DNA from: a virus
Length of the DNA stretch: 24,828 nucleotides
Virus record (IMG/VR): IMGVR_UViG_3300025096_000122
Coordinates: 1-24,828 of that record
Reading direction: 5' to 3' (one strand)
In this document: positions 4,314 through 23,545 of the stretch, in pieces
How the letters are laid out: every line of letters begins with the position of its first letter
Numbering within the stretch: position 1 is the first letter of the stretch
Notes under the pieces: model-generated
What the model was told of the DNA's origin: nothing
Databases searched by the model: none
The model's input: only the letters and a program-made list of their open reading frames with translations
Position numbers and translations under genes: made by a program

Positions 4314-7300
4314 TTAAGTAGCATAATTTTTAGACTTCAACTTATTGGTTCTTTGAACAATCATAGAAGTTGAAATCCCGGTTCCATTTGTTCCAATACC
4401 TGCTCCAGTGTATGCAGTATATGAAACTAATCCACTGCGAGAGGTAAGATCAATTCTTCCCCAACTAAAGGATCCGTAGAAATTAGAAGTAGTAATACCA
4501 ACTGTAGTATAAGGTTTAAAGTCCCCATCTATCTTAACAAAAACCCGATTCAAATAAGTAGTTCCTATTCCAACTCCTGAAGAATCAAGACCAGTAGGAG
4601 CATAAACAATTTCAGAACCATTAACCTCATAAACATTATCTATAAAGGCAGTTCCTACTCCTGTTGTACCCCCACCAGAATTAAGAGCAGTTATTGATGT
4701 AGTGGCGATACCTACATTAGAGAATTCAACAACAAAGTAATCATTAGTACTTATTCCACTAATAGTAATAGCAGTTCCTGTAAGAGTAGAATTCCGTAGG
4801 AATGAATTATCAGGGATATGAAGATCCATAATAAATTGTGTTCCTCCACTAATGGTAGTGGTTCCAAATCCAACAATCTCTCCTTGATCTCCCGCGTATA
4901 CATTTACACTATTTCCTTCCTCTGTATAAACAGGAGGAGAAATCAGAACCTTAGGTGGGGAATCTGTAGTGTATCCATAACCAGGATTAGTAATTGCTGC
5001 ACCCGTAATTACCCCATTAGCAATCGTTAATGAACCAAAAGCAGTAGTAGTTGTACCAATTCCAATTCCACCCTGAACTGTACTTCCGATACTCAATGTA
5101 GCAGTTGAATAACCTACACCACCTTCGGTAATATCAATAGATGAAATAGTTCCTAAACCAGAAACAATAGCAGTTGCAGCAGCAGAAGTCTTAGTTTCTT
5201 GGGCAACAAAGAGAACTTTATTCTGGAAACTTAATGCACTAGAATCTACATTCTCATTCTGCGAGTCAAATATTGGTCTTAAAGTATCAACATAGATTGT
5301 AGTTGAACCAATTCCTACAGTCTTAGTAATATATGCGAAAGGATGAATACGTGGTTCATATAAATCTCTATCTTTACCAATAGGTAAATCATTTACAAAC
5401 ATATCTTCAGTTTGTCTGCACCAGTTAACTGGTCTTACCAAAGTTTCATCTGCACTATTGCCAGGACCATAATAAGGATTAGTAGTGACCAAATCGGTAG
5501 AATTAATTTCCTGCACTCCGCGAGAATCTTCTTGAAGATTCTTTCCTTGTCCAAGAGAAGGACTATGACCAATTGTAAGATTGTCTCCAATCTTAACAGT
5601 CTCAATAATATCCTTGAATACTACGTCACTATCACCACTTCCCTTATAGAAGATAAGTTTAGAAGTATCATCTTTCTTAGGTGCTTCAGTAAATTCTATA
5701 ACGCTACCACCGCTGAATTTATATCCTTGACCAGGAACCTGTAGAATGTCATTGATGAATACCAGAATAACATCCTGCACATCAATATTAGAACCTTTTC
5801 CTGCTCTAATAGAAACTACATCTCCACCATTCTCAGTAAGAGTAAAGGATTGAGTAACTCCATCGAACTTATCATCCAAGTTATCTAACATATAGAGATA
5901 ACCTAAAGACCATCCATTAAACTCATCATCAAAGACTCTATCAATATTAATTAAGAATTCCTTATAGGAAGAAGTAGTAGGGATACCAACTGTACCGCCA
6001 ATACCAACTGTTAAGGATTCTCCTTGACCATATCCATATCCAGTTTCCCCAATACGGAATTCAATTACGCTAGAACCTTGACCCACTTGAATATCAATAG
6101 TAGCTTCAGTTCCTACACCAGCAGATCCAGAAGCATAAACAAGAGGAATATTAGAGTAAGAAAGTGGATCATCAATTACAACTTCTAAATGTGGTTGTAC
6201 ATTACCACCTCTGGCATAATGATGTGCACATGTAGAAGTTCCAGTGTTAACAATGAATTTCTTATTATCAAGTACTTCAAGGACTGTTACTTCTTTAGCA
6301 GCAGGATCTTGCTTACTTGCAGAATTATTACTTGTTCTAGGAGCCACAATAGTTCCTTGAACTGTTCCACTCCCTTTAAAGTAACTAGCAACAGTGGATA
6401 TTCCTACATTAACTTCAAACTCTGTAGTACTATTAACCGCAGTAACAGGGGTTCCTGCATAAGTAGGATCTGGTTTTCTAGGATATCTGTGATAGGTAGA
6501 ATTAGAATCCTTACTGCAAGAGAAAGTAAGAGATTCTTCCGCCAACTTAATGGTCTCACCAGTTGTTAATGTATGAGCACCAATAGTCATCGTAAGAATA
6601 CCAGTATTTGCGCTATAATTAGCAGCACTAACTGTAAACTTCTGAATAGTGGTTACTCCAACATTAATGGTCAATGTATCCGAAGTAGTGCCAGTAATGG
6701 ATAAAGCAGTACTAAATCCTGGATCAGTAGATCTTGGATAAGTATGAATTGAAGAATAATTATCTTTAGCACACCTGAAACTTAAACTACTATCTTCCAA
6801 TCTAATACTAGTTGAAGTAGTTAAACTATGTGATCCCACCGTCAGAACTAAGTCTCCAGTAGTTGGAGTGTAAGCAGCATCCGAAACATCATAATATACG
6901 AAAGGTGATGCCCCAACATTAACAGTAATAGTACTATCACCGATTGATGTAATAGCAGTGTTGATTCCAATAACAGGATCCGTAGAACGAGGATAATCAT
7001 GCTGAGTAGCATTATCATCCATAGAGCAAGTGAATATTAATGCACTTGTTCCTATGCCTACAGTATCGCTAGTAGTATAAGTATGACCAGACCCTACAGT
7101 TAGTACCAAAGCACCTGTAGAAGCAGTGTAAGAAGCGTCTGTAACAACCGTAGACCCTATTCCAGCAATGGTAATAGTACCAACTCCTACACTTACAAAC
7201 GTATGAGTATAATCACCACCAGTAATAACTGCATCCGCCTCAGCACTTACAAATTGGTGTGTATAATCTCCACCAGAAAGAACAGCACTGGTTCCTACTC

Positions 7301-10300
7301 CTACAAAAGTATGAGTAAATTGATTGTTAGGTGCTGCATAACCAACATCTACTGTAATAGCGGTAGCAGTCGTAGCAGCAATTGATATTGCAGTATCATA
7401 TGCAGGATCTCCACCTCGTGGATAATAATGCGTCGTAATTCCTGCATCAATGCTGCAAGTAAATCCCAGTCCAGTAAAGATGACGTCTCTTCCAACAGCA
7501 AATCCATTTGCAGCAGAAGTAGTGACTGTCATAATACCACTAGCAGTATGATAACCAACTGTACTAATATCTAATGGAGCAGCATAAGAACAAGTAAAGG
7601 CAATACCTGATAATTCAACTTCATCGCCTTGAGAATAACCATGTACCTTATGAGTGGTAACTGTAGTAACTCCTGTTGTGGAATTATACCCAACATTAGA
7701 GATTGTCTTAGGAGAAGCAAATACATGTGTATTAGTAACTGCTATTCCTGTAATATATCCATTCGTAACGGTTGCGGTACCAATCGGAGTGAGATTAACA
7801 CCAATAAGGGATTCTGTCTTAATTGCAACATTAACAGAAGATGTAACACCTGAACGATAACCAGATCCACTATTACCAATAGCAATAGAACTAACCGTTC
7901 CTGCACTAGAAACAACTGCAGTTCCTCCTGCAGAGATGAGTGGTTGATATCCAAATCCTTCACTCGATCCAACAGAAACCAGTGCACCACCCATTGGAAT
8001 ATTAGAACCACCAGGATCAGTCCCTATTGAAGTTGCAGTGCCTACCCAATTAACTGTAGAAATTCCAGAACTTTCGGTTATAGTATACTGGTAATTAGAT
8101 CCACTTGCTTGATATACATCATTAACTAGAAGGAAAGATTCAGTCTTAATTCCAGTTACATTTTCATTATTAGAAGTTAAAGTAAAGTCTCTTGTAACTC
8201 CATTAAATCCATGAAGAGAATCAAACACATAATTTTGAGCATATGTGTCAGTTGAACCACCAGAAACACCAGAACGCATAAAGGTTCTTCCTTGGAAAGT
8301 AGAATGAGTGGATATTCCTACCCAATCTCTATCATCTGGTTGATTAGTGGTGCTGCTTAATGGGGTAAGTCCATATGGTGCCTCCACAAAGTTGAGAACA
8401 TTATCTACAATATTATAATTACCAATAACTTTTGTTACAAGATCTCCCGTACCAAATCCAGCAATTCTAGTACCCATCCATCCTCTACTTACTCGCAAGG
8501 CATTAGTTGTACCAACTCCCACTGATGTAACCTTCATTACCTCATCACCAACCTTAATGAGGTCAGCACCGAATATAGAAGTAATCCCACTAACTTCTAT
8601 TACATTGGTTGTATCCAAAATTTGATCAGCAAGAGTTGTAGTTACTGCAGTAGATACTAAAGGAGATTGAATAATATTATCTAAAGCAACAACTGCCTTG
8701 GCATTTTGATTAGTTGATACAAATCTATGGGAAGTTCCTATTCCTACACTAGTAATATCAATTACATCAGGAACAACCTTTAATGCATTTTCAGCACTTG
8801 ATGCAAGTTTAATTGTATCAGCATCTACCTTAACTACAAAAGGATTCTCAGGGAGGTATTCAGTAAATCCTACACCAGCAAACGAAGTGGATGCAATTCC
8901 AACTGCTGATGTAGCACTTCCAACATGCTTATACTTAAGTCTTTCTCCGGTAACCCAGAAATGATCTGGAATAGTAATGGTGTTATTAGTAACATCAACA
9001 ACAGCACTATCATTACCAGTGAAATATCTTTCAAAAATATCTCTATTTTTATGCTGTAATCCAAATGCTCTCAGAATATCAGAGTCTGTACCCGTATAAC
9101 TTCCAAAAGCACTTCTAATATAAGCATTAGTAAAGTCTATTTCATTTGCCGCTTCTGGATCATCAGGATGATACAGTGCATTCATAAAGACCTTCACTTT
9201 ACATGCAATACTTGCATTAGGAGTAAAGACCAAAGAAGTTGTGCCAGCAGTACTCACTCTGCTTCCAAATGTTCCTAATCCGGCAGAAGTATAAAGATCT
9301 GCAAATTGGGTTTCATAGGTATCTACGGTAATGGTCGAATCTTCAATAAATTGATCAACAACAATAATTTCAGTTGTTTGATGCTCATTATTAGTAGTAT
9401 CAGTAACTTGAACTATAAAGTAAGCAGAATCATAAGTATCAGGATACTGAGCAATTGTATTAATTCCAGGAGTTCCGGAAGAAGCAATAGTAGTTGCTTT
9501 TGCTTCTAATCTTACGTGATTAAGATCTTGAGTCCCTATTCCAGAAGAAGTTTCACTTGCAAAACCAACTTGGAGGGTATTAATAACCCCGGTCGTTCCA
9601 ATTCCTGCATTAGGAATGAAATCAACCTTTAAGTTAGATCCTGAAATATAAGGATACCAAGTACCCAGTCCAGACAAAGTAGAGTAATCACTTATTTCAG
9701 TGGATAATTGACCATATTCAAGCATTGCAACATCGGTTCCATCATGTAGAATATTAATTTCATCAAATTCAAATTCATTATCATTTCCACTTACATCTGC
9801 TGTAATATTGGCAAGAATCTTAAGTGAAGTATAAGTAGCAGCAATTGAAACAACATTAGTAGTAGTCCCAGAAGGAACTTCAACACTATCACTATCAATA
9901 ATGACTACATCACCAAATGTGGTCGCACCTACACCTAAATAAGAATCTTCTAAATTATAGGATAATGTAGTAATCCAATAATCATTTACACTATACTTGG
10001 TAGGATAGAATTGTAATTGACCTTCTGTTCCAACAATTTTGAAATCAAATGAACCTTGATCATAAACAGTATCAATACGTCCATATTGATTAATAAATCC
10101 AAATGATCCGTCATGAAGAAGATCTACGATCATCAATTGGCGCTGTTGAACATATCTCTTATCTCTAATATAACAGAGATACTTGTTAGACCTTACAGCA
10201 GTTAAATCAAACGTATCAACTACACTATACTTGGTAGGACGTGGATTACTGTTAAAGGTTCCACTCATATCATCAATAGAGAGAACTCGGTTTCCTACCG

Positions 10301-13300
10301 ATTCATAATAGTCTTGTAAAATACGACTAGAGAAGACTATCTCATCCGATACTACTTGATCACTTATTACAAGAGAATTTTCTTTAACAAGATCAAAATC
10401 ATATACACAATTTATATTTCCAAATCCAACTAAATCACTGACGATATCAACCGCTGTCTGATCAGTAGTTAAACCAACCACGGATTGTGCTTTACTCTCT
10501 AATTGATAATCAGAGAATTTCTTAAATCCCAAACTGTGGTTTAAAGTACTTACAACATCATCCCAAGTATCATAAGTAACTTTTGATCTCAAAGAATAAG
10601 CAAATCTTTGATAATAATCACTATCTTGTATTCTTTGAAGATTATAATTTAACCATCCAGAATCTACTTGCCATCCATGAAGAACCTTAGAAGTGGGTCC
10701 ATAATTAAATGAAGATGTATAGGAAGTAATAGAAGATGCTACTCCTTGAGTACCTGATGACTGTCCACGAATAGTTTCATTAACAGCAAAACTCTCACCA
10801 GAAGATATTTTTAATAATCCTGACTTCGGATTCCACGATTCGACTATACCAGTCGCAGAGTTAGACTTAACAGTCTCTGCAGTCAAATATTCATTAGTCT
10901 TTAAGTGTATATCAAATAATGGGAAGTATTGTTGTGGAATAACTCTACCCGAAGAATTTGCTGAATCAAATGTGCCTGGTATTGAACCTGTTGGTTTGGA
11001 AGCAAGTACACCTTCAATATTATAATAAACGGTTCCTATGCCACCTAAATTCTCATCAACAGCAGTTACATCGAAAAGTTTATAACCATAATCAACAGAG
11101 TTATACCCCACTCCAGTGCTTGCCACTCCAACACTAACATTCTCAACTAAAATCTTATCATCAACTCGGAAGGGGAAACTATTAGCAGTACTGAATCCTA
11201 CAGAAAGAGTAAGACTGACTTCTTTAGTAATTGTGTTAAATCCAACTGTACTAATACCAACACCATTGCTATTATGAACAGGAAGAATAGTTGGGGTAGT
11301 ATTACTCATCCCAAAGGTATTTTTCAGAATAGTTACCTGAGAATCACCCAGACTATACTTAAGATCAACATCAGTAATTTCTTTCTCAGTTTTTCCATCA
11401 AGAACTCTGAGTTCTGGTGCAGAAGAATACCCTCTTCCACCAGAAGTTATTCCAATAAATTCAAAGGAAGCCAATGCTTCAATGTCTATTAACTGAGGTA
11501 ATTCAACAGTAGGTCTGAGAGTAGTATCTACTGGGAAGTTATATCCAATATTATTAATTTGGGTCTTTTTAACTTCTCCAATTGTTGTACTTGCTGCCTC
11601 AATGATTGCACCCTTACCAACAGAAGTAGTAATAGTGGTAATTCCGGGCAGTGAATAATAATGAGATCCTTTATTCTTAATTTCAAACTCTGTAATAGGA
11701 CCATAAGCATTTGTGGAAATAGTCTCATATCCTAAAGAAGATGTAGTAGCAGCATATGAAACTGCTTCTGGATATTGGGGTAGAGTATATGTAAATGTAT
11801 TAGTCCCACCTACTGTTATGGTTTGCTGACCATTATAATCACTTTCCAATATTTCTACCTGGTTATTAGAAATAACTTCAGTATCAATATTAATTTCTTC
11901 TTTTACTACGGGAAGAGTACTTTCTTCAAGAGGATCAAGTTTATAATGAAGAATGTTTGGTGCATTATCATTTACAGTTAAAGTAACTTTAGCACCAGAT
12001 GTTCCTACTTGACCTGAACGTGTAACCTGGAAATCCTTATTAAGTATACCCTTATTCCACAATTGAGTGAAATTCTCATCTGTATAGAAATTAAGTTCAA
12101 ATGCTGGATAGTCAGTTGATTGAACCGTATATGCCAATGAAGAATCGGACATATCAAATTCAATTGAAGAATTCTTATAGAATTTAAGAGCTGGGTTAAC
12201 AGGACTTAAAGTTCCTGCAGAGGTACTAGTAATACCAATAGTAAAGGGAATAAGTTTAGTAGAATTATAATAGGTATCAGATAACTTAAACTCAGAATCA
12301 CTTTCTCTAACTACATAATAAATTCCATTATTTGTTAATCCTTCTATAGGACTACTAGAAGTATAAACAACCTTCTGTCCCATTACAAAACCATGATCAG
12401 TTATGGTAAATGTATTTGTAGAAGTATTGACTCCAACAGCAGTAAATGGTTGTGCATCAATTAAAACCTTACGATTATAATCATTATACTTAACAGTAGT
12501 AAATCCCGTAGTTTCAGGATTAACATCAACATCCACCACATCGTTGTTTATAAGTCCATGAGTGGTCCCTGTGGCGACCGTGACGAGGTTTCTAGTCAAC
12601 GTTGCTGTAATGGGACCATAATTCGTTTTAAGACTGTGGTAGACCCCTGTACCCACTCCGCTAAAGAATAAAGTAGTTGAAGAAGTGCTGTGGATTCCTA
12701 CAAAACTTCCTGTGGATCCCAACCCAACCGCTGTTGTCGCCAACCCTACTAAAGTTTGATTAATAACACCAGCATACAATTTCTGCCCATCTGTAAGAGT
12801 AGCAACTCCAGATGTAGCGTTTTCCCAATATGCAAGACCTGTTCCATTACCAGGAGAATAAGTTAGTTCATCACCTGTGCTTAATTCGTGCCCAGGAATA
12901 TAAAGTGCTTTTGTAGGAATAAAGAGTTCGCTAAGTCCAGTACCTGGATTTGAGAATACTAAGGTTGATCCAATACCCACTCCAGCAGTAGTTCCCAAAC
13001 CAACAGTTTCGGAAGGTTGGAAATAAATCTGTTCATTCTGCTTAACACTATAACTAGTCTTAAATCCCGCATCAAACGTTAATTTACGTTGGTCAGGATA
13101 CAATACAGATGTGACAGTGTGAGCACCGCCTACAGTCCCTTCTACTGCTCTTAGAACGCGAATCCTAGACAGTTGTGGTTCAACATTAAGTACTTTTACT
13201 TTCTCTGTACCGATCCCCAAAATATCATTGGATCTAATTTGATAAATGGAATTAAGATCACCCGATACATTAAAATGAGTAACAAATCCAGTAACCCCTA

Positions 13301-16300
13301 CAGTCGCTATCCCAGAAGACGTAGTTCCCACTCCAGTTACAATAAGTTTACTCGTTACAACCCCAACATTATAATATCCCCCAATCTCTGAAGAGGTAGT
13401 GGATAAACCACTGATTATAATATTATCCTTATTTTTGAAGTTATGAGGATTAGTAGAGAACGCAATATATTGACCATTTTCCTCTCCACTATAAAGTTCT
13501 ACACCAGTAATAGTGCTTTGTGCAACGCTAACACTAGTTACTGTTTTACCTTTAAGTTGTGAAACTTGAGCAGCAGCAGCATATCCCTGAGTGCCTTCAT
13601 TATCAAAGACGATAGGATCTTCAACCTGATAAAGATCTCCACCTGTTTGAATACCAACACTAGTAACACCACCTGGAGTTACTCCCTTAATATCGGCACT
13701 TTGAGTCAAATCGTTAGGTATGTAAACATACTCATAATTTAAAGTCCCTTCAATCAAATTATAGGGGTGGGTATTTCTTAACCACTTAGAATTTTGAAGA
13801 TCTAGTGTATCTTGATTAGAAGTATGTGCATGATTAAAATCATTAAGAAGTGAATTATAATTATCACCAATTAAATATGGGAATACTGGTCTCTTATATC
13901 CCATAAAAGGTCCAGAAGAATCGGTCGAACCAGACTCAATAGTTGCAAAATATGCATAAGTTCCTTCTGGATATTCGGGGGTAACACAGAATCTTCCATT
14001 ATTTTCATCAAGAACAGTGTTATCAACTACATCTTTATAAGTATAATCTTCAACAAAGAATCCTTCACCCCAAAGTGATGTAGGAGGTCTAGTAGCATCT
14101 ATAGAAAGAGAATATCCAGATCGCATCTGAGATACAATACCACCCTCATTAGTAATATAACCATAAGGTCCATAAATGGGATTTCCATCATATGCCCACC
14201 CAATGATAGGAGAATGTTGATCAGAAGCAACCTCTAAACTAGCAACCCTCTTTAAATCCTTATCACCATATAATTTTACTCCTGTTTGATCAGTAGCAAA
14301 CATTACCTCCCTTAATTTTCTAGGAGCATATAAAGCTGAATATTGAAGTCCCCTATTCTTATTAAACTCATGAGCAATATATCCATCATCCCCAGTAAAC
14401 TTATCTAAATTCCTTTGAAATATATTAACAGTCCATGTTTGTAAAAGAGGTCTTAAACTAACTCCAGAACCTGGGAAAACCACTGTTACCGTGGTAGATG
14501 CCTGAACATATCCAGATCCACCTGATATTACTTTAACAGAAGTAATTTGATTATTCTCAAACACAGGAGTAATAATTCCCCCTACACCATCTCCTGTTAT
14601 TGTCAAATTAGGTGCTGAATTATATTTTTGTCCTACATTTAATACTACAACTTCACTAATAGCACCATCAACAATAATTGGAGTTAATTGAGCATCATTT
14701 CCAGATACTAAAGACACCTCAGGTTCTCTAACAAAGTTTAAAACTTCAGATGAACCATATCCAACACCTTGATTAGATAAATGGATAGATGTTACTTCTC
14801 CTCGGAATATTGGTTGAACTTCACATTCAAATGTTTCTAAACCAGTTGATGCAATACCAACCTTACCTGTTAAGGTTACATTTATAGCAGGATAATCAAA
14901 TCTTTGAGTTCCTACTCCTACAGATGTTAAATCAACATACTGTTTTGTTCTATAATTGTATTCTTTATCACTAGCAACACCAACAGCAGATAATTTAAAC
15001 TTATCATCATCTACTCTTGTTACATAGTACTCTGTACCTACAGAAAGTCCACTTATACCAGTGTCAGTGGTACTGGTATACTTAACAACTTCGCCGGAAG
15101 CATAATCATGATTATCAATCGTAATTTGATCTAAAGAAGTACTAACTCCAGTTGTTCCAGTCGTTCTGGTTTTATTTTGATAACCAGATCCAGAATCCAA
15201 TACATTAATGGAATCTACAACAGATTTCTGGAAATAAGATTGTAGACTTTGCTTACCTACACCATAAGAAGTTAATTCAACAGTATTAATTCCTGCTAAA
15301 GCATCTCCTTGAGTCTTATGAAGCTTAACTGTAGTCAACCCAACTAAAGAAACATAATAAGGAGATTCTGTAGTAATTCCTCCAATATTTTGCTGTCCAC
15401 CAGTAATATAGAAAACTTGTTCGCCCGATCCAAACTTATGGAAAGTAGAGAATCCAATAGTGGACTGAGTACTACCTAATGATACTTTTTCGGAGAATGC
15501 TTCAGAATCAAAATCTACCGAATGGGTAATTTGCTTCATATTTGCTGAAGCAACAGCACCTTTTCCATTTCCTCCAGTAATAGTGACTACGGGTGTTTCT
15601 TGATAATCAAAACCAGGACTACTAACTCTAATTTCACGTAAATTACCAGAAAGTGCAGGATATCCCGTTGCAGCTGTTCCAACAGGGTCTTCAAGGAGTA
15701 ATAGAGGTGGATTAATTATATCATAATCTGCTCCCGAAGATTGGACTTCTATTTCATTGATTTTTCCATAATAAACCCTATCTCTAGACTTGTAATTTAA
15801 AACTTCTACTCCATTTACCAAAATACCAGTAAAACCAGGTAGAGTTTCAGTAGTAACTCCATCCGTCTGTGCAGGAGATATTTCTCTTAAAAGTCTTTGT
15901 GATTCTAATGTTTTAAACTTAAAGTCATAAGGTTCAAGGATGTTATCAGTTAAAGCAACAGTGACAGATGCCGCAATAAAGTTATCAGCATAGATTTGAT
16001 CTTTACTATAGGATAATTTAACTGTTGTTTGATCTACTCTCTTGATAAAATAAAGTTTTTGACCATTTGGGATTAATTCAGTTTCGGTAGTATCACTAAC
16101 ATCTTCAAGACAAACAAATCCAACATCAGAAGGAAAAAATGAAGATTTAACAACCAATTTATATTTCTTTGTACCTACTGAATTAAAATATTCCTCTTCA
16201 ACTTTTTGGGGAATATAATAAACCATATCCCCAGTATAGAATCCATGATCCCCAGTAATACCTATCTCAATATTAGTTGCTCCTTCATCCACAGTTGTAG

Positions 16301-18047
16301 TAAAGATGGATTTCTGACTAGAAACATCTAAAGGTTGATTTGCATAAGTTGGAAGTGAAGGAGAAGCAATTAAAAGTCTTTCATCATCCAAATAAACATT
16401 TTGGACATTACTTGCATATATTTCTGCTTTGGGAAAAGTATTGGATTGAACTTTTGAAATATCTCTTCTAAGTCTATAAGTTTCAGTAGGAAGAGTTCCT
16501 TGTCCTCTAATTAAAACTGTATTTGCTGAAGTAACATTAATAATCTGTGTACTACGTGTAACATCATTAGAATCAATGATAGATGCAGCATCACCTATCT
16601 TAAAGATATGATCAACACCTAGAACTACACTATAACTTTTATCCGAAGCGTCTGCTAAGGTCAAAGAATCAACTTTATAGATAGGGGCAACATTATAGAA
16701 CCAATTCTTTGGTTTAAAGGCAGTTGCGCCAATTCCTAAGGTTTTAATCTTAGCAGTATCTCCAGCGGAATAATAATGAGTATTATCTTCATATTCTAAA
16801 TCTTTTAAGACAGAATTAATCCTTACAAGGATAGTTTCATCTTGATCAGAGAAAGAACTACCGAAAGCAAAAGTATTAATTCCAACAATAGACGCATTAG
16901 GAAGAGTTCCTGTTATTTCATCAACTCCAAAGAACTGTGTAAGGGATTTGGAGGTATAAGAAACTACACCAGTAGTAGAATCATTATAAGTAACAAAAAG
17001 ATCGCCAGTAGCGCCAAAACCAACGGTAGAGTCAACATCTAGAACAGTAGATCCTGCTGCAACTTGTCCAATTATTTGAGTACTTGGTTGAACAGAGAAT
17101 GAACCATAAATTGAGCCTTCAACCCGAACATCTCTATTATATCCAGCATCTATAGAAATCTTATAGTAAGTTCCGCCAATACTAGGACTAATTTTCTCTA
17201 CACTAGTAATAGGAGCATATGCTTTATGAGGATTAGATTCAAAGGGGTACTGGAACAGTGTTGATTGCTCCAAGTCCATTGGATCACCACCATCAGGAAT
17301 GGATTCTACTACTAAATCATTCGTAATTCTATATTCAGCATTAGAAGGGGTGAAAAGAAAATCTTTTGGTCTAACAATTCTTACTTCTTCATCATAAAGT
17401 GCTTTAAAGAGAATTTCAAAAGATTTATCAGTACCTTTACTTAAGTAAAAGTCTTTTGCTTGCTTAATAAAGATCTCTTGGTTTAAATTTTGGGTTAAAG
17501 TCCTATCTTCTAATCCAGGAGTAAGTTGATGTTTAGATTTTAGTAAAAATTGCTTAAGAAAGAGTGAACTAAGATTAGATATTGTTGATTCTACTTCATG
17601 CTCTGCTGCTTCACTCTGAGTGAAAACTAATTGATCTGTAGTTGCCTCTTTTTCATAAGAAGTAATACCACTAAACCCTCTTATGCATCCAGTAAAGGAA
17701 AAAGAGGTTTTGGCAGTATATGTAATAATCTCATCATTAATTTTTAACAACCCATAGGTATCAGGAAATCCCTCTGTACCTTTGGGGGATTGTACCGCGT
17801 CTACTTCAATGGTAGTGTCATCATACCCTAGTGCAGTGTCTAAAACGACACTATCTACCACATGAGTTAACTCACTTATCTTAATATATTCATCAATGTT
17901 CTGAATAAGATCAATGGGTGCTCCTTGAAATTCCTGAGCAATATAATATTGCTTTAAAAAGTCAGAAATTAACGGAAACTCCTCCTTTACATAGGACGGG
18001 AGTTGGTTCTGAACAATGTTACTAAATTGAATCCTCTTTTCTGCCAT
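4314..18047 (-). CDS. Giant 4577-residue virion structural protein in the gp7 position (baseplate wedge initiator-like)
   Basis: One uninterrupted 13.7-kb frame between gp6 and gp8, the slot held by gp7 (1032 residues) in T4; the core of gp7 bridges the baseplate wedge proteins. I see no direct gp7 motif, so the wedge role is inferred from synteny. Layout: an N-terminal non-repetitive part (residues 1-300, beginning MAEKRIQFSNIVQNQLPSY), then long beta-rich tracts full of GIGT, GVGT and GSGY turns; a YHYH-like domain near residues 1275-1400 (AYDGNPIYGPYGY, then EYPEGTYAYFAT); a less repetitive region near 2360-2710; an HxYPR tandem array near 3490-3950; and a C-terminal part with NDILQVPGQGYKF (about 4085-4097). 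At least three further module types recur along the chain. The start ATG lies one base after the gp6 stop and has only a weak Shine-Dalgarno sequence. It probably projects from the baseplate as a fibre-like or rim structure. Assembly error is unlikely because the frame stays open throughout. Confidence 0.9.
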   Translation of the reverse strand: MAEKRIQFSNIVQNQLPSYVKEEFPLISDFLKQYYIAQEFQGAPIDLIQNIDEYIKISELTHVVDSVVLDTALGYDDTTIEVDAVQSPKGTEGFPDTYGLLKINDEIITYTAKTSFSFTGCIRGFSGITSYEKEATTDQLVFTQSEAAEHEVESTISNLSSLFLKQFLLKSKHQLTPGLEDRTLTQNLNQEIFIKQAKDFYLSKGTDKSFEILFKALYDEEVRIVRPKDFLFTPSNAEYRITNDLVVESIPDGGDPMDLEQSTLFQYPFESNPHKAYAPITSVEKISPSIGGTYYKISIDAGYNRDVRVEGSIYGSFSVQPSTQIIGQVAAGSTVLDVDSTVGFGATGDLFVTYNDSTTGVVSYTSKSLTQFFGVDEITGTLPNASIVGINTFAFGSSFSDQDETILVRINSVLKDLEYEDNTHYYSAGDTAKIKTLGIGATAFKPKNWFYNVAPIYKVDSLTLADASDKSYSVVLGVDHIFKIGDAASIIDSNDVTRSTQIINVTSANTVLIRGQGTLPTETYRLRRDISKVQSNTFPKAEIYASNVQNVYLDDERLLIASPSLPTYANQPLDVSSQKSIFTTTVDEGATNIEIGITGDHGFYTGDMVYYIPQKVEEEYFNSVGTKKYKLVVKSSFFPSDVGFVCLEDVSDTTETELIPNGQKLYFIKRVDQTTVKLSYSKDQIYADNFIAASVTVALTDNILEPYDFKFKTLESQRLLREISPAQTDGVTTETLPGFTGILVNGVEVLNYKSRDRVYYGKINEIEVQSSGADYDIINPPLLLLEDPVGTAATGYPALSGNLREIRVSSPGFDYQETPVVTITGGNGKGAVASANMKQITHSVDFDSEAFSEKVSLGSTQSTIGFSTFHKFGSGEQVFYITGGQQNIGGITTESPYYVSLVGLTTVKLHKTQGDALAGINTVELTSYGVGKQSLQSYFQKSVVDSINVLDSGSGYQNKTRTTGTTGVSTSLDQITIDNHDYASGEVVKYTSTTDTGISGLSVGTEYYVTRVDDDKFKLSAVGVASDKEYNYRTKQYVDLTSVGVGTQRFDYPAINVTLTGKVGIASTGLETFECEVQPIFRGEVTSIHLSNQGVGYGSSEVLNFVREPEVSLVSGNDAQLTPIIVDGAISEVVVLNVGQKYNSAPNLTITGDGVGGIITPVFENNQITSVKVISGGSGYVQASTTVTVVFPGSGVSLRPLLQTWTVNIFQRNLDKFTGDDGYIAHEFNKNRGLQYSALYAPRKLREVMFATDQTGVKLYGDKDLKRVASLEVASDQHSPIIGWAYDGNPIYGPYGYITNEGGIVSQMRSGYSLSIDATRPPTSLWGEGFFVEDYTYKDVVDNTVLDENNGRFCVTPEYPEGTYAYFATIESGSTDSSGPFMGYKRPVFPYLIGDNYNSLLNDFNHAHTSNQDTLDLQNSKWLRNTHPYNLIEGTLNYEYVYIPNDLTQSADIKGVTPGGVTSVGIQTGGDLYQVEDPIVFDNEGTQGYAAAAQVSQLKGKTVTSVSVAQSTITGVELYSGEENGQYIAFSTNPHNFKNKDNIIISGLSTTSSEIGGYYNVGVVTSKLIVTGVGTTSSGIATVGVTGFVTHFNVSGDLNSIYQIRSNDILGIGTEKVKVLNVEPQLSRIRVLRAVEGTVGGAHTVTSVLYPDQRKLTFDAGFKTSYSVKQNEQIYFQPSETVGLGTTAGVGIGSTLVFSNPGTGLSELFIPTKALYIPGHELSTGDELTYSPGNGTGLAYWENATSGVATLTDGQKLYAGVINQTLVGLATTAVGLGSTGSFVGIHSTSSTTLFFSGVGTGVYHSLKTNYGPITATLTRNLVTVATGTTHGLINNDVVDVDVNPETTGFTTVKYNDYNRKVLIDAQPFTAVGVNTSTNTFTITDHGFVMGQKVVYTSSSPIEGLTNNGIYYVVRESDSEFKLSDTYYNSTKLIPFTIGITSTSAGTLSPVNPALKFYKNSSIEFDMSDSSLAYTVQSTDYPAFELNFYTDENFTQLWNKGILNKDFQVTRSGQVGTSGAKVTLTVNDNAPNILHYKLDPLEESTLPVVKEEINIDTEVISNNQVEILESDYNGQQTITVGGTNTFTYTLPQYPEAVSYAATTSSLGYETISTNAYGPITEFEIKNKGSHYYSLPGITTITTSVGKGAIIEAASTTIGEVKKTQINNIGYNFPVDTTLRPTVELPQLIDIEALASFEFIGITSGGRGYSSAPELRVLDGKTEKEITDVDLKYSLGDSQVTILKNTFGMSNTTPTILPVHNSNGVGISTVGFNTITKEVSLTLSVGFSTANSFPFRVDDKILVENVSVGVASTGVGYNSVDYGYKLFDVTAVDENLGGIGTVYYNIEGVLASKPTGSIPGTFDSANSSGRVIPQQYFPLFDIHLKTNEYLTAETVKSNSATGIVESWNPKSGLLKISSGESFAVNETIRGQSSGTQGVASSITSYTSSFNYGPTSKVLHGWQVDSGWLNYNLQRIQDSDYYQRFAYSLRSKVTYDTWDDVVSTLNHSLGFKKFSDYQLESKAQSVVGLTTDQTAVDIVSDLVGFGNINCVYDFDLVKENSLVISDQVVSDEIVFSSRILQDYYESVGNRVLSIDDMSGTFNSNPRPTKYSVVDTFDLTAVRSNKYLCYIRDKRYVQQRQLMIVDLLHDGSFGFINQYGRIDTVYDQGSFDFKIVGTEGQLQFYPTKYSVNDYWITTLSYNLEDSYLGVGATTFGDVVIIDSDSVEVPSGTTTNVVSIAATYTSLKILANITADVSGNDNEFEFDEINILHDGTDVAMLEYGQLSTEISDYSTLSGLGTWYPYISGSNLKVDFIPNAGIGTTGVINTLQVGFASETSSGIGTQDLNHVRLEAKATTIASSGTPGINTIAQYPDTYDSAYFIVQVTDTTNNEHQTTEIIVVDQFIEDSTITVDTYETQFADLYTSAGLGTFGSRVSTAGTTSLVFTPNASIACKVKVFMNALYHPDDPEAANEIDFTNAYIRSAFGSYTGTDSDILRAFGLQHKNRDIFERYFTGNDSAVVDVTNNTITIPDHFWVTGERLKYKHVGSATSAVGIASTSFAGVGFTEYLPENPFVVKVDADTIKLASSAENALKVVPDVIDITSVGIGTSHRFVSTNQNAKAVVALDNIIQSPLVSTAVTTTLADQILDTTNVIEVSGITSIFGADLIKVGDEVMKVTSVGVGTTNALRVSRGWMGTRIAGFGTGDLVTKVIGNYNIVDNVLNFVEAPYGLTPLSSTTNQPDDRDWVGISTHSTFQGRTFMRSGVSGGSTDTYAQNYVFDSLHGFNGVTRDFTLTSNNENVTGIKTESFLLVNDVYQASGSNYQYTITESSGISTVNWVGTATSIGTDPGGSNIPMGGALVSVGSSEGFGYQPLISAGGTAVVSSAGTVSSIAIGNSGSGYRSGVTSSVNVAIKTESLIGVNLTPIGTATVTNGYITGIAVTNTHVFASPKTISNVGYNSTTGVTTVTTHKVHGYSQGDEVELSGIAFTCSYAAPLDISTVGYHTASGIMTVTTSAANGFAVGRDVIFTGLGFTCSIDAGITTHYYPRGGDPAYDTAISIAATTATAITVDVGYAAPNNQFTHTFVGVGTSAVLSGGDYTHQFVSAEADAVITGGDYTHTFVSVGVGTITIAGIGSTVVTDASYTASTGALVLTVGSGHTYTTSDTVGIGTSALIFTCSMDDNATQHDYPRSTDPVIGINTAITSIGDSTITVNVGASPFVYYDVSDAAYTPTTGDLVLTVGSHSLTTSTSIRLEDSSLSFRCAKDNYSSIHTYPRSTDPGFSTALSITGTTSDTLTINVGVTTIQKFTVSAANYSANTGILTMTIGAHTLTTGETIKLAEESLTFSCSKDSNSTYHRYPRKPDPTYAGTPVTAVNSTTEFEVNVGISTVASYFKGSGTVQGTIVAPRTSNNSASKQDPAAKEVTVLEVLDNKKFIVNTGTSTCAHHYARGGNVQPHLEVVIDDPLSYSNIPLVYASGSAGVGTEATIDIQVGQGSSVIEFRIGETGYGYGQGESLTVGIGGTVGIPTTSSYKEFLINIDRVFDDEFNGWSLGYLYMLDNLDDKFDGVTQSFTLTENGGDVVSIRAGKGSNIDVQDVILVFINDILQVPGQGYKFSGGSVIEFTEAPKKDDTSKLIFYKGSGDSDVVFKDIIETVKIGDNLTIGHSPSLGQGKNLQEDSRGVQEINSTDLVTTNPYYGPGNSADETLVRPVNWCRQTEDMFVNDLPIGKDRDLYEPRIHPFAYITKTVGIGSTTIYVDTLRPIFDSQNENVDSSALSFQNKVLFVAQETKTSAAATAIVSGLGTISSIDITEGGVGYSTATLSIGSTVQGGIGIGTTTTAFGSLTIANGVITGAAITNPGYGYTTDSPPKVLISPPVYTEEGNSVNVYAGDQGEIVGFGTTTISGGTQFIMDLHIPDNSFLRNSTLTGTAITISGISTNDYFVVEFSNVGIATTSITALNSGGGTTGVGTAFIDNVYEVNGSEIVYAPTGLDSSGVGIGTTYLNRVFVKIDGDFKPYTTVGITTSNFYGSFSWGRIDLTSRSGLVSYTAYTGAGIGTNGTGISTSMIVQRTNKLKSKNYAT
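6200..7580 (-). repeat. Tandem HxYPR protein repeat inside the giant protein
   Basis: About residues 3490-3950 contain four full copies of a unit of roughly 85 residues. Each has a strand pair ending VxVG, a segment like FTCSxD, and then HxYPRxxDP: HYYPRGGDP, HDYPRSTDP, HTYPRSTDP and HRYPRKPDP. A decayed end copy (HHYARGG) and an initial half copy (AFTCSY) flank them. The HxYPR motifs fall near 7420, 6990, 6730, 6480 and 6218. The first gap is longer because it holds three short (F/Y)THxFV mini-repeats. Copies share amino-acid pattern but little nucleotide identity, so the duplication is old. Confidence 0.85.
7195..7320 (-). repeat. (F/Y)THxFV mini-repeat, three copies
   Basis: Inside the HxYPR array the protein reads FTHTFVGVGTSAVLSGG, then DYTHQFVSAEADAVITGG, then DYTHTFVSVGVG. 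This makes three consecutive short units of about 18 residues, an expansion nested within the larger repeat. Confidence 0.75.
8720..8975 (-). repeat. One copy of a dispersed 'HGxxxGD' module (others at 12205-12400, 12690-12897, 14895-15115, 15240-15450 and 15960-16255)
   Basis: At least six segments of the giant protein share a plan of about 65-100 residues. Each opens with a line like DHGFxxGDxVxY (DHFWVTGERLKY, DHGFVMGQKVVY, GHELSTGDELTY, NHDYASGEVVKY, FHKFGSGEQVFY, DHGFYTGDMVYY). Several continue with a G-YYV line and a VDxxxxKLS line, and end in a TSxGxGTxxF-like strand. They are scattered rather than tandem, so the protein appears to have been built by repeated copying of a few beta modules. 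Confidence 0.75.
13850..14225 (-). other. YHYH-like domain within the giant protein
   Basis: Residues of about 1275-1400 read HSPIIGWAYDGNPIYGPYGY, then LDENNGRFCVTPEYPEG, TYAYFAT and PVFPYLIGDNY. The DGxPIYGPYG core and the later NGR...TPEYPxGTYxYF line follow the YHYH domain found in many secreted bacterial proteins and some phage structural proteins. The eponymous Y-H-Y-H appears here as TYAYF, so the histidines are absent. The domain's function is not established; on a virion a surface or receptor-contact role is a guess. Confidence 0.7.
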
Positions 18048-19975: not shown

Positions 19976-20377
19976 TTATCTTGTTGGTTGCAACGCGAAT
20001 TGTAATTCTTGTGGAGGAATTTCAGAACCTATGATTTCATAAGTAATGATTACATCAAATTGATTATTATCGAAATTAGGAAATGCTTCCACATCCAATA
20101 ACTCCACCCTGGGTTCATAATTTCTAATAGATTCTTTAATTTCATCGACAATAACCGATGCAGTTATGTCGTCTATGTTTTCAAATAGCACTTTTGAAAT
20201 TTTAGATCCAAAGGTTGGTTGAAAAAACTTCTCTCCAGGTAGAGTAAAGACAATATTTCTTACTGAACGTGCAATTGCGTTCTCGTTCTTAATGGCAATA
20301 AGGTCACTATTCAGGGGATTAGCCTGAAATGTCATACTAATATCCTTAAAACCTCTACTAATCCGCTCTACTGGCAT
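19976..20377 (-). CDS. 25: Baseplate wedge subunit gp25
   Basis: This 133-residue protein matches T4 gp25 in length (132) and in the family core. The conserved NYEPRVEL line, with the EPR triplet at residues 88-90, is the hallmark of gp25/TssE-type sheath-initiator proteins. The N-terminal RGFKDISMTFQANPLNSDL and the NIVFTLPGEKFFQPTFGS segment (41-58) are also typical. In T4 the protein sits where the wedge meets the inner tube and starts sheath polymerisation. It heads the gp25-gp6-giant gene run. A late motif AATAAATA lies 22 bases upstream of the ATG and there is no strong Shine-Dalgarno sequence. Confidence 0.96.
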   Translation of the reverse strand: MPVERISRGFKDISMTFQANPLNSDLIAIKNENAIARSVRNIVFTLPGEKFFQPTFGSKISKVLFENIDDITASVIVDEIKESIRNYEPRVELLDVEAFPNFDNNQFDVIITYEIIGSEIPPQELQFALQPTR

Positions 20378-20912: not shown

Positions 20913-21698
20913 TTATATAATACGAGTTTTTTCGTGCCCTACACGAATACGTGGATCACACCAGATGTCAAATCCTTTATCGATTGCATCGAGACAGAAA
21001 CTAACGTCTTCCCCACACATATCTTGAACCGCACCAGATTCAAAGACTTGCATCTTTGGAGCAAACCAAGGATATTCAAGTTGTTCAAAGACACCCTTCT
21101 TAATAAGAACCCAACCGAACCCAGTATAGTCTACTGTGAAAGGCTTCTTTCTTTTCGAGATACTTTCGACGGTTTCGTGATTCATAACACCCCCGTTCTT
21201 GCGGAAGTCTTCTTCTTCTAACCAGTGTGCAACTGAGGTAGTAACACCATCTTCTGTAGCATACCAACCACCAACGATCTCTTTCTCTTCTTCACCTGAT
21301 CCTTCAGCAGGGAATGCCATGTCGCAGAGTGCCCAGAACTTGTTAGCATCAAAGACAATATCCGAGTCAATCCAAAGTTGGTAATCATACTTAAGCTTAC
21401 CGTCCCATGGAATCTGCTTCGGTCCCCTTAGAACATTTGCTCCGAGACACTTGCATCTTGCAAAGTTAACCATAGATGAATAGTCCTGGGATATCTGGAT
21501 AGACATACCACTCTGAACCATATCAAAGCATAACTGCACAAAGTTTTTCAGGAAGATGTAAGAACATCCACGCCCTGGAAGACAAAATACAATTGTCTTT
21601 CCTTTCATTCTTGCTTTAATCGCAGGTACATCCCATTCTTCTGCTTCTTTTTTCTTTGCGGGACGTGGTGCTGCTTTAACAGTAAATCCTTTTGCCAT
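20913..21698 (-). CDS. Glycosyltransferase-like protein (GT-A fold), 261 residues
   Basis: The protein has the features of a small GT-A glycosyltransferase: TIVFCLPGRGCSY at residues 35-47, a DSD metal/nucleotide-sugar motif in LWIDSDIVF (111-113), GGWYAT (143-148), the acceptor-side GFGWVLIKKGVFE (193-205), GEDVSFC (229-235) and a late His in VGHEKT (253-258) where GT-A enzymes often hold the metal. It has no membrane segment, and its N-terminal 30 residues are basic and probably flexible. I recall it as a conserved gene upstream of gp25 in cyanomyoviruses. Donor and acceptor cannot be read from sequence; modification of a virion protein or of phage DNA is conceivable. A good sigma70 promoter overlaps the stop of the gene before it, so early expression with the two tiny basic genes is likely. 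Confidence 0.75.
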   Translation of the reverse strand: MAKGFTVKAAPRPAKKKEAEEWDVPAIKARMKGKTIVFCLPGRGCSYIFLKNFVQLCFDMVQSGMSIQISQDYSSMVNFARCKCLGANVLRGPKQIPWDGKLKYDYQLWIDSDIVFDANKFWALCDMAFPAEGSGEEEKEIVGGWYATEDGVTTSVAHWLEEEDFRKNGGVMNHETVESISKRKKPFTVDYTGFGWVLIKKGVFEQLEYPWFAPKMQVFESGAVQDMCGEDVSFCLDAIDKGFDIWCDPRIRVGHEKTRII

Positions 21699-22113: not shown

Positions 22114-22258
22114 GATTTTTTTTATCTTTGTTGTTCTAGAAATCACTTGGACGTACCCACTTTTGTAGGTTAGGGACTTATCGGTTTTTATAAACGGGCA
22201 ACGCGACGCGGCACGTTAACAACGAAGGGGCATAAACACTGTCCAAACGACTGTTACT
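22065..22258 (-). ncRNA. Candidate small RNA of about 190 nt
   Basis: A consensus extended sigma70 promoter predicts a start near 22257, and the first hairpin with a T run ends near 22065. No ORF longer than a few codons lies between in any minus frame. The interval is less AT-rich than its surroundings (GCCGCGTCGCG on the minus strand) and holds self-complementary parts, including ACCTAC-AAAA-GTGGGT, CGTT-GTT-AACG and the terminal stem. It matches no RNA family I know (not tRNA, Yfr1 or glnA). The alternative is a long attenuated leader for the 83-residue gene. Confidence 0.5.
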
Positions 22259-22582: not shown

Positions 22583-22756
22583 TTACCAACTGACAGGATT
22601 ACTTAGATCTTCAGTGTAACTTTCCAATGCTTCATCTGCACCGATATCTAACATTTTCGCCCAGTCAATTGCATGGGGATTAAAGTCATCGTGGACATCA
22701 ACTTCTAGCGTTATTCTATACTTAGTGAGTGTACGGTTGTAGTAAGAAACGGTCAT
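22583..22756 (-). CDS. Small phage protein, 57 residues
   Basis: ATG at 22754-22756, TAA at 22583-22585. It begins MTVSYYNRTLTKYRITLEVD, a beta hairpin-like start, then VHDDFNPHAIDWAKMLDIGA, and ends DEALESYTEDLSNPVSW. The layout (two strands, FNPHxxDWxxMLDLG, acidic tail) is one I associate with small cyanophage proteins of unknown function. It is too short for the usual ORF cut-offs, but two promoters point straight at it: a perfect consensus sigma70 promoter and, just upstream, a TATAAATA late motif. No Shine-Dalgarno sequence is visible. It ends just before the promoter-like repeat that serves the next gene. Confidence 0.75.
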   Translation of the reverse strand: MTVSYYNRTLTKYRITLEVDVHDDFNPHAIDWAKMLDIGADEALESYTEDLSNPVSW

Positions 22757-22785
22757 CGGACTTGGGGGAGAAGGTGACTAATAGT

Positions 22786-22814
22786 ATTATAGAATAAGGA
22801 AGCAATATTGTCAA
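22786..22814 (-). promoter_or_regulatory. Perfect consensus sigma70 promoter of the 57-residue gene
   Basis: Minus strand TTGACA (22809-22814), exactly 17 bases, then TATAAT (22786-22791). The predicted start near 22779 lies 23 bases before the ATG. Confidence 0.85.
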
Positions 22815-22826
22815 GTTTGGTAGGTC

Positions 22827-22834
22827 TATTTATA
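22827..22834 (-). promoter_or_regulatory. Late promoter motif TATAAATA upstream of the 57-residue gene
   Basis: An exact T4-type late box on the minus strand, 13 bases upstream of the sigma70 -35 hexamer. In tandem, the two boxes would allow both early and late expression. Confidence 0.6.
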
Positions 22835-22927
22835 GTACATTTGTAATACTATACGAACCTAAACTGTCGGTTCTAGTTTGTTACTGAACTGGTTTGTATT
22901 AGACTGTGTAGAATTATATCGAAGGTC

Positions 22928-22964
22928 TTGTAATTCGCGAGCGTTTGTGTTATACTACGCTCGC
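22928..22964 (+). promoter_or_regulatory. Plus-strand promoter framed by a GC-rich inverted repeat
   Basis: TTGTAA (22928-22933), 17 bases, then TATACT (22951-22956) with TGT before it, pointing into the DnaA-box region. GCGAGCG (22937-22943) and CGCTCGC (22958-22964) form a perfect 7-bp inverted repeat around the -10, which could be an operator or a cruciform. No plus-strand gene follows, so an RNA product is implied if it is active. Confidence 0.45.
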
Positions 22965-23126
22965 TTAGATCACTATAAGAACTAACATTTATCCACACAA
23001 TTACAAACGTTTCTAACACTTATTCCACAGTATTAGTAAGGGTTTTATACAACATTGTGGAAAACGTTTAAATCAGACAAGTATATTTAATTTGCTATTT
23101 ATTCGGGCAAAAAATACTTATCTTTG

Positions 23127-23166
23127 TAGTTTTCCACAGGTAAGTGTATAAAACTGTGGAAAACTA
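23127..23166. repeat. Perfect 13-bp inverted repeat containing two TTTTCCACA boxes
   Basis: TAGTTTTCCACAG (23127-23139) is repeated as its exact reverse complement at 23154-23166 with a 14-base AT-rich spacer. Each arm holds the 9-mer TTTTCCACA, known as the DnaA-box form in Synechococcus. It lacks the T run of an intrinsic terminator. Confidence 0.9.
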
Positions 23167-23221
23167 TCTATTAAACAGTAGTAAGACTAAGACCCTTCCT
23201 ACTATAACATAGAACAAGAAA

Positions 23222-23545
23222 TTAGTCCATCTTTGTATCATTTTCCTCCTCTAAATCCTTCTGTATAATTGTATCTAATTGACCTATTATCTTATTCAGT
23301 AATGTATCAATTTTATAACCTAATTTGTAGATAGATTCTGTTAAATTACTGGTATCAATCTTCTCTCTTTCCTTATCAACTAACTGCTTGTAATTACTGT
23401 ATGCTTGTGTATCAAATGGTGGGTTAGATTTGTTCATTGATTGTACTAAATGATCGACTGATTGATTGTAGTTGTTGTTAGCTTTGGGGTTGTTACTTTC
23501 GTTAGAATGTAATAACGAGTTGTTGTAAAAGGCACGGTCAAACAT
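23222..23545 (-). CDS. Hypothetical protein, 107 residues, Asn-rich with C-terminal helix
   Basis: Starts at ATG 23543-23545, immediately after the stop of the gene before it (TAA then ATG with no gap), indicating translational coupling. The first half is rich in Asn and Ser (SNESNNPKANNNYNQS) and probably disordered. From about residue 66 (LTESIYKLGYKIDTLLNKII) to 98 there is a heptad-like amphipathic helix that may form a coiled coil, and the tail is acidic. It has no signal peptide or membrane segment. I do not recognise it. It is the last gene before the candidate origin region, so a DNA-related role is conceivable but unsupported. Confidence 0.7.
   Translation of the reverse strand: MFDRAFYNNSLLHSNESNNPKANNNYNQSVDHLVQSMNKSNPPFDTQAYSNYKQLVDKEREKIDTSNLTESIYKLGYKIDTLLNKIIGQLDTIIQKDLEEENDTKMD

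Follow-up and report, generated by a model that had tools for sequence, protein, structure and literature searches.

The locus and its gene surroundings

The window, i.e., the whole stretch of DNA that was analysed, is a virus fragment of 24,828 bases (24.8 kb) that carries the baseplate genes 6 and 25 and shows distant similarity to Synechococcus phage Bellamy, to Prochlorococcus phage P-TIM68 and to a viral contig from a marine single cell. Judged by its sequence, it derives from a T4-type cyanophage (Kyanoviridae or near). An intergenic stretch of about 465 bp (22757-23221), lying between two small genes on the minus strand (22583-22756 and 23222-23545), holds a cluster of DnaA-type boxes, in agreement with the initial annotation, which had placed such a cluster in a gene-free region.

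Three minus-strand genes serve as landmarks for this site. The small conserved gene immediately to its left (22583-22756, 57 aa) has a homologue that marks the site in relatives; the gene for a conserved 261-aa protein (20913-21698) was used as an anchor for picking relatives regardless of boxes; and the homologue of the baseplate wedge gene 25 (19976-20377), about 2.6 kb from the cluster, provides the positional anchor for whole genomes. Elsewhere in the window, a single ORF of 4,577 aa (4314-18047, minus strand) adjoins gene 6 and apparently encodes a giant structural protein. A second conserved non-coding element, TGTAGGTTAGGGACTT..TTTTTATAAACG, is found at 22163-22193, its 31 bases being identical to positions 52077-52107 of S-SSM7; it usually lies 0.5-0.8 kb from the transcript start described below, and is also found near the cluster in Syn9 and P-TIM68.

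The box cluster

The repeats at the site are 9-mer boxes in both orientations. Pattern searches locate TTATCCACA at 22989-22997 (plus strand), the near match TATTCCACA at 23021-23029 (plus) and TTTTCCACA at 23056-23064 (minus; also recovered from the alignment of relatives), 23130-23138 (plus) and 23155-23163 (minus). The last two boxes lie inside a perfect 13-bp inverted pair, TAGTTTTCCACAG at 23127-23139 and CTGTGGAAAACTA at 23154-23166, while the palindrome AAACGTTT is present at 23005-23012 and 23062-23069. All five sites of the initial annotation are thus where it had put them, and its two palindromes are present.

Exact TTWTCCACA occurs four times in the 24,828 bases, always within 22989-23163, and 100 dinucleotide-preserving shuffles of the window gave a mean of 0.64 and a maximum of 3. 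At one mismatch the window has 22 matches, not an unusual number against the 19.5 expected, so that the signal resides in the exact boxes and their clustering, together with the comparison with relatives. When TATTCCACA is counted, the spacings in the window are 32, 35, 74 and 25 bp, all within the classes seen in relatives; the near match itself stands 32 and 35 bp from its neighbours.

Predicted promoter and transcribed start

The boxes are preceded by a promoter-like sequence, TTGTAA-17-TATACT with TG before the second hexamer (22928-22956, plus strand), which would fire rightward into them, and for which the consensus in relatives is TTGACA-17-TGATAGACT. It is followed by a GC-rich discriminator and the beginning of the transcript, GCTCGCTTAGATCACTA (22959-22975, plus; GCTCGCTWAGATCACWA as given from alignments), with the start predicted near 22963, and by a spaced ACATTT (22985-22990, plus) that is part of the conserved transcribed start. 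This anatomy was derived from alignments of 44 relatives and, separately, of 26 loci picked regardless of boxes. Along the direction of transcription, the promoter is followed by the discriminator and start, then by ACATTT, then by the boxes, most of which fall between +40 and +200, and lastly by AT-rich DNA. The initial annotation had overlooked both this promoter/leader module and the conservation of position.

The module is more widespread than the boxes. At least 83 distinct viral sites have the discriminator and start, and 25 of the 26 loci picked regardless of boxes, box-less ones such as Bellamy among them, have promoter and start. At about 73.3 kb in the Bellamy genome the promoter, the transcript start and the AT-rich stretch are all kept and no exact DnaA box is found, which suggests that the module has a function of its own.

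The predicted transcript runs against the neighbouring genes, and would accordingly be non-coding rather than the mRNA of a downstream gene: no plus-strand ORF of at least 40 aa was found between 22,500 and 24,113 of the window, and in complete genomes a single strand, the one opposite this promoter, is about 80% coding. A search of Rfam returned only one non-significant match, to a snoRNA family far under its gathering score, and no terminator was found. On the other strand, a perfect sigma70-type promoter, TTGACA-17-TATAAT (12/12; 22786-22814, minus), points leftward toward the gene at 22583-22756; it is divergent to the promoter at 22928 and about 115 bp from it, and similar leftward promoters were seen by eye in S-SM2 and Bellamy.

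Occurrence in relatives

The cluster is a real feature and is not peculiar to this contig. Searching the viral collection for the dyad pattern alone gave at least 119 contig stretches, more than half of which hold homologues of the baseplate-side genes on the same side, although these stretches were selected for their boxes. For a sample independent of boxes, the gp25 alignment was too poorly conserved as a query and the neighbouring 261-aa protein was used instead; at least two exact boxes were found just upstream of the 57-aa gene in 16 of the 26 usable loci. On that upstream side there were 66 boxes in 171 kb, as against 6 in 570 kb on the other side, the reversed-pattern controls being 7 and 15.

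The largest comparison relies on the 83 distinct sites picked by the conserved transcript start alone. At least two boxes lie within 350 bp of the start in 49 of them and fewer than two in the other 34. Box density is 4.68 per kb within 350 bp of the start and 0.014 per kb elsewhere in the contigs, with 0.21 and 0.018 per kb, respectively, for the reversed pattern. Counts from the different samples are not independent, as some contigs recur across samples and the contigs are mutually related. The comparison of density proposed in the initial annotation comes out in its favour in these contigs and in the genome scans, exact boxes being near zero elsewhere. Some 40% of relatives keep promoter and start but have no exact boxes.

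Spacing, orientation and AT-rich DNA

Among the 83 sites, the distance between neighbouring direct boxes is 12, 19-22, 32 or 42 bp, with one case of 56, and that between neighbouring inverted boxes is 12-14, 22-25, 34-35 or 65-67 bp. These spacings are in helical phase (Rayleigh p of about 1e-12 and 1e-8), though the sequences are related rather than independent and the p-values are overstated; it is therefore the count of distinct spacing classes that matters. Both mixed-orientation and one-orientation arrays occur. The combination of helical phasing with mixed orientations is in keeping with a protein that binds cooperatively, and not with an RNA hairpin.

A conserved AT-rich stretch resembling an unwinding element, TATATTTAATTTGCTATTTAT (23082-23102, plus strand), was recognised from the alignment of relatives. 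In 24 of 30 loci, the DNA is least stable somewhere between +40 and +300 relative to the start. For the window, the stability profile reaches its local low to the right of the boxes, at about 23264, and not at the 23082-23102 stretch.

Position in complete genomes

In a scan of 13 cyanomyovirus genomes, in which the best 500-bp box window was taken for each, the densest box window of the whole genome lies 1.6-8.5 kb upstream of gene 25 in eight, as is likewise the case in the present window. Relative to gene 25, the starts are at -8.0 kb in S-PM2, -6.2 in Syn9, -7.6 in S-CREM1, -2.0 in Syn19, -7.8 in DSL-LC03, -3.2 in S-SM2, -2.5 in P-TIM68 and -8.5 in S-BM3. In genome coordinates, the cluster is at about 19.2 kb in S-PM2 and at about 52.6 kb in Syn9. 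By a rough estimate, random placement would bring a given cluster into that interval upstream of gene 25 about 5% of the time (8.5 kb out of some 180 kb). A sensitive DNA search found the dyad in S-PM2, S-CREM1, DSL-LC03 and S-BM3, and a homologous locus in AG-345-O18. The check for the cluster at the same place in related cyanophages, asked for in the initial annotation, comes out positive for the eight genomes. The other five of the 13 (P-SSM2, P-SSM4, P-HM1, S-RSM4 and Bellamy) lack a comparable cluster genome-wide, and no box cluster was found at gene 25 in T4 or in Pelagibacter phage HTVC008M.

GC skew, which the initial annotation had suggested as a means of locating the origin, was computed both raw and detrended at third codon positions with strand correction; it showed no consistent agreement with the cluster across phages, and does not place the origin.

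Candidate binding protein and host genomes

The 9-mer TTTTCCACA is a cyanobacterial DnaA box, bound by domain IV of Cyanothece DnaA in EMSA and footprint experiments (PMC4674748), and its earlier identification as such is consistent with this in vitro binding. It is from this Cyanothece box, rather than from the origin of the marine host itself, that the class of the phage boxes was assigned. In the phages, G precedes the box in 51% of cases and G or A follows it in 89%. No DnaA C-terminal domain was found among the proteins of 14 complete cyanophages, and a phage-encoded initiator with this domain was rejected as a candidate. Host DnaA is encoded in Synechococcus WH7803 (GGKDHTTV motif) and RCC307.

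Sampling of the WH7803 genome in 20 blocks gave skew switches at two places, one near dnaN and the other near 1.15 Mb, and the former points to a host origin beside dnaN. The dnaN side of WH7803 bears only degenerate boxes, e.g., TTTTCCACG and TTTTCCCCA, unlike the exact TTTTCCACA of other cyanobacteria, and the same holds for the dnaN-side origin of RCC307. The dnaN-side host origin was therefore rejected as a source of matching boxes in both genomes, and, given these degenerate sequences, TTTTCCACA is a presumed preference of picocyanobacterial DnaA. Over the whole WH7803 genome the 9-mer is not enriched (14 occurrences vs. 15 of the reversed pattern).

An inverted TTTTCCACA pair within 60 bp can be found on the host chromosomes in 29 of 31 host-genus genomes, at a single place per genome (two places in one genome). 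It nearly always measures 53-54 bp end to end. In WH7803 it lies at 1819368-1819420, mid-arm and away from the skew-defined origin, between two small genes, which we take to encode DUF2811 and DUF1818. Its surroundings include the conserved near-boxes GTTCTCCACA and GTGGAGAAA and the motif ATTGATCAG..CTGATCA, and a pair of the same spacing is also present in many smaller, Prochlorococcus-size genomes of the family. Measured start to start, its 44-45 bp come close in phase to the inverted pairs of the phages (2.3 vs. 3.1 bp modulo 10.5), a closeness which suggests that one host protein reads both, without proving that this protein is DnaA. A datA/DARS-like, DnaA-regulating site of picocyanobacteria is a possible reading of this pair. 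No description of such a single-copy chromosomal DnaA-box pair was found in the literature searched.

Interpretation of the site

From the boxes, their phasing, the promoter, the conserved start, the position and the lack of a phage DnaA, all of which can be read in the sequence, we infer binding of host DnaA, R-loop formation and origin activity. The proposal, to which about an even chance can be given, is that the site is an origin combining the promoter/R-loop design of T4 with recruitment of host DnaA. The host-type promoter at 22928-22956 would make a short transcript, not an mRNA, against the neighbouring genes; this transcript would pass the phased DnaA-box array and then, in most relatives, AT-rich DNA, and it might form an R-loop and serve as primer for the leading strand, as in T4 oriF, while host DnaA bound to the boxes would help to open the DNA for loading of the phage helicase-primase. 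Since about 40% of relatives keep promoter and start without exact boxes, the part played by DnaA would be optional, an accessory open to loss. Phage T4 itself is not known to need DnaA. The full scenario, namely early replication at a hybrid origin where a non-coding transcript primes and host DnaA opens the DNA, some lineages having dropped the DnaA part, is put forward tentatively, at not quite even confidence. The origin reading has to contend with the five of 13 genomes lacking a cluster, with the 34 of 83 start-selected sites that have fewer than two boxes, with a skew that does not place the origin, with the AT-rich stretch of the window not being its least stable DNA locally, and with the degenerate boxes on the dnaN side of host WH7803.

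The boxes could instead control transcription, host DnaA (or its ATP form) sitting just past the non-coding start, near the divergent promoters, in the role of repressor, roadblock or timing switch of early baseplate-side transcription, with no role in the start of replication. While the location of the boxes, mostly 40-200 bp downstream of a conserved promoter, the perfect divergent sigma70 promoter about 115 bp away in the window and the wider conservation of promoter and start than of boxes would all suit such a switch, a simple repressor has no need of three to four phased boxes over 170 bp together with AT-rich DNA, and the rightward transcript encodes nothing; this explanation is considered unlikely, though it keeps some weight. 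The alternative raised in the initial annotation, a decoy whose boxes titrate host DnaA and so stop host initiation or free the host machinery for the phage, would agree with the exact consensus of the phage boxes as opposed to the degenerate ones on the host dnaN side, with the hundreds of boxes that dozens of replicated phage genomes would hold, and with the conserved host dyad at a mid-arm, datA/DARS-like position. A decoy, however, would need neither the fixed position nor the coupled promoter and start nor the adjacent AT-rich DNA, and only two to seven boxes per genome are available at entry. Of the two possibilities offered in that annotation, origin or decoy, promoter coupling, phasing and fixed position favour an origin (or DnaA-controlled transcription), and a pure decoy seems quite improbable.

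It can also be asked whether the protein is DnaA at all, given that a different sequence-specific protein of host or phage might bind TTTTCCACAG. The preferred context exceeds nine bases (the G before and the G or A after the box), the 9-mer shows no enrichment in WH7803, and the one dyad of this box that is conserved in the host is found elsewhere than at the skew-defined origin. Similar flanks are nevertheless a property of E. coli DnaA boxes, and a box with phasing and AT-rich DNA is the usual oriC pattern. As the 9-mer is, moreover, identical to the one bound by a cyanobacterial DnaA in vitro (PMC4674748), another binder is regarded as improbable. Hardly credible, finally, are a chance cluster, at odds with a roughly 300-fold enrichment of boxes relative to the same contigs, and an RNA hairpin or terminator. 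The inverted pair at 23127-23166 could fold into a 13-bp RNA hairpin, but a shared hairpin or terminator was rejected in view of the 21 of 49 box-bearing sites that have boxes in one orientation only, and neither an Rfam match near threshold nor a terminator was found.

Relation to known systems and significance

Several known systems resemble parts of this locus. T4 has at least five origins, which are not known to use DnaA. In oriE, clustered repeats go with what is apparently an early promoter, and in oriF and oriG a promoter accompanies an unwinding element (PMC3016281). An R-loop has been shown for oriF and suggested for oriE. The present site likewise belongs to the T4 superfamily and has a promoter directed into non-coding repeats or AT-rich DNA, as do oriE and, with a middle promoter, oriF and oriG, but its repeats are cyanobacterial DnaA boxes instead of the 12-nt iterons of oriE, and its R-loop is a prediction. 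With the oriC of cyanobacteria (Synechococcus PCC 7942, Anabaena PCC 7120 and Cyanothece 51142) it shares clustered TTTTCCACA boxes and, in most relatives, AT-rich DNA nearby; it differs in being carried by the genome of a lytic phage that has its own helicase, primase and polymerase, and in not being beside dnaN.

DnaA boxes are known at origins of other phages, and that of the plasmid-phage P1, too, has such boxes for the initiator of its host. P1, however, is a plasmid-prophage with a phage initiator, RepA, and iterons, whereas the present phages are T4-type and no DnaA-like phage initiator was found in them. The datA and DARS elements of E. coli are small intergenic arrays of DnaA boxes, some with inverted pairs; these are chromosomal, and it is the mid-arm dyad of the host, not the phage site, that is comparable to them. 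No description of a DnaA-box or DnaA-using origin in cyanophages was found in the open-access papers searched, and for Syn9 only a predicted single theta origin is noted in a review (PMC2984593).

T4-type cyanophages are abundant killers of ocean picocyanobacteria, and the site described here is a precise, conserved origin candidate shared by many isolates and by uncultured relatives. Were DnaA to be used there, a phage group long deemed self-sufficient for replication would depend on, or interfere with, the initiator of its host, and its replication might thereby be coupled to the cell cycle of the host. Should the hybrid origin prove true, the onset of phage replication would be tied to the host's own initiator.
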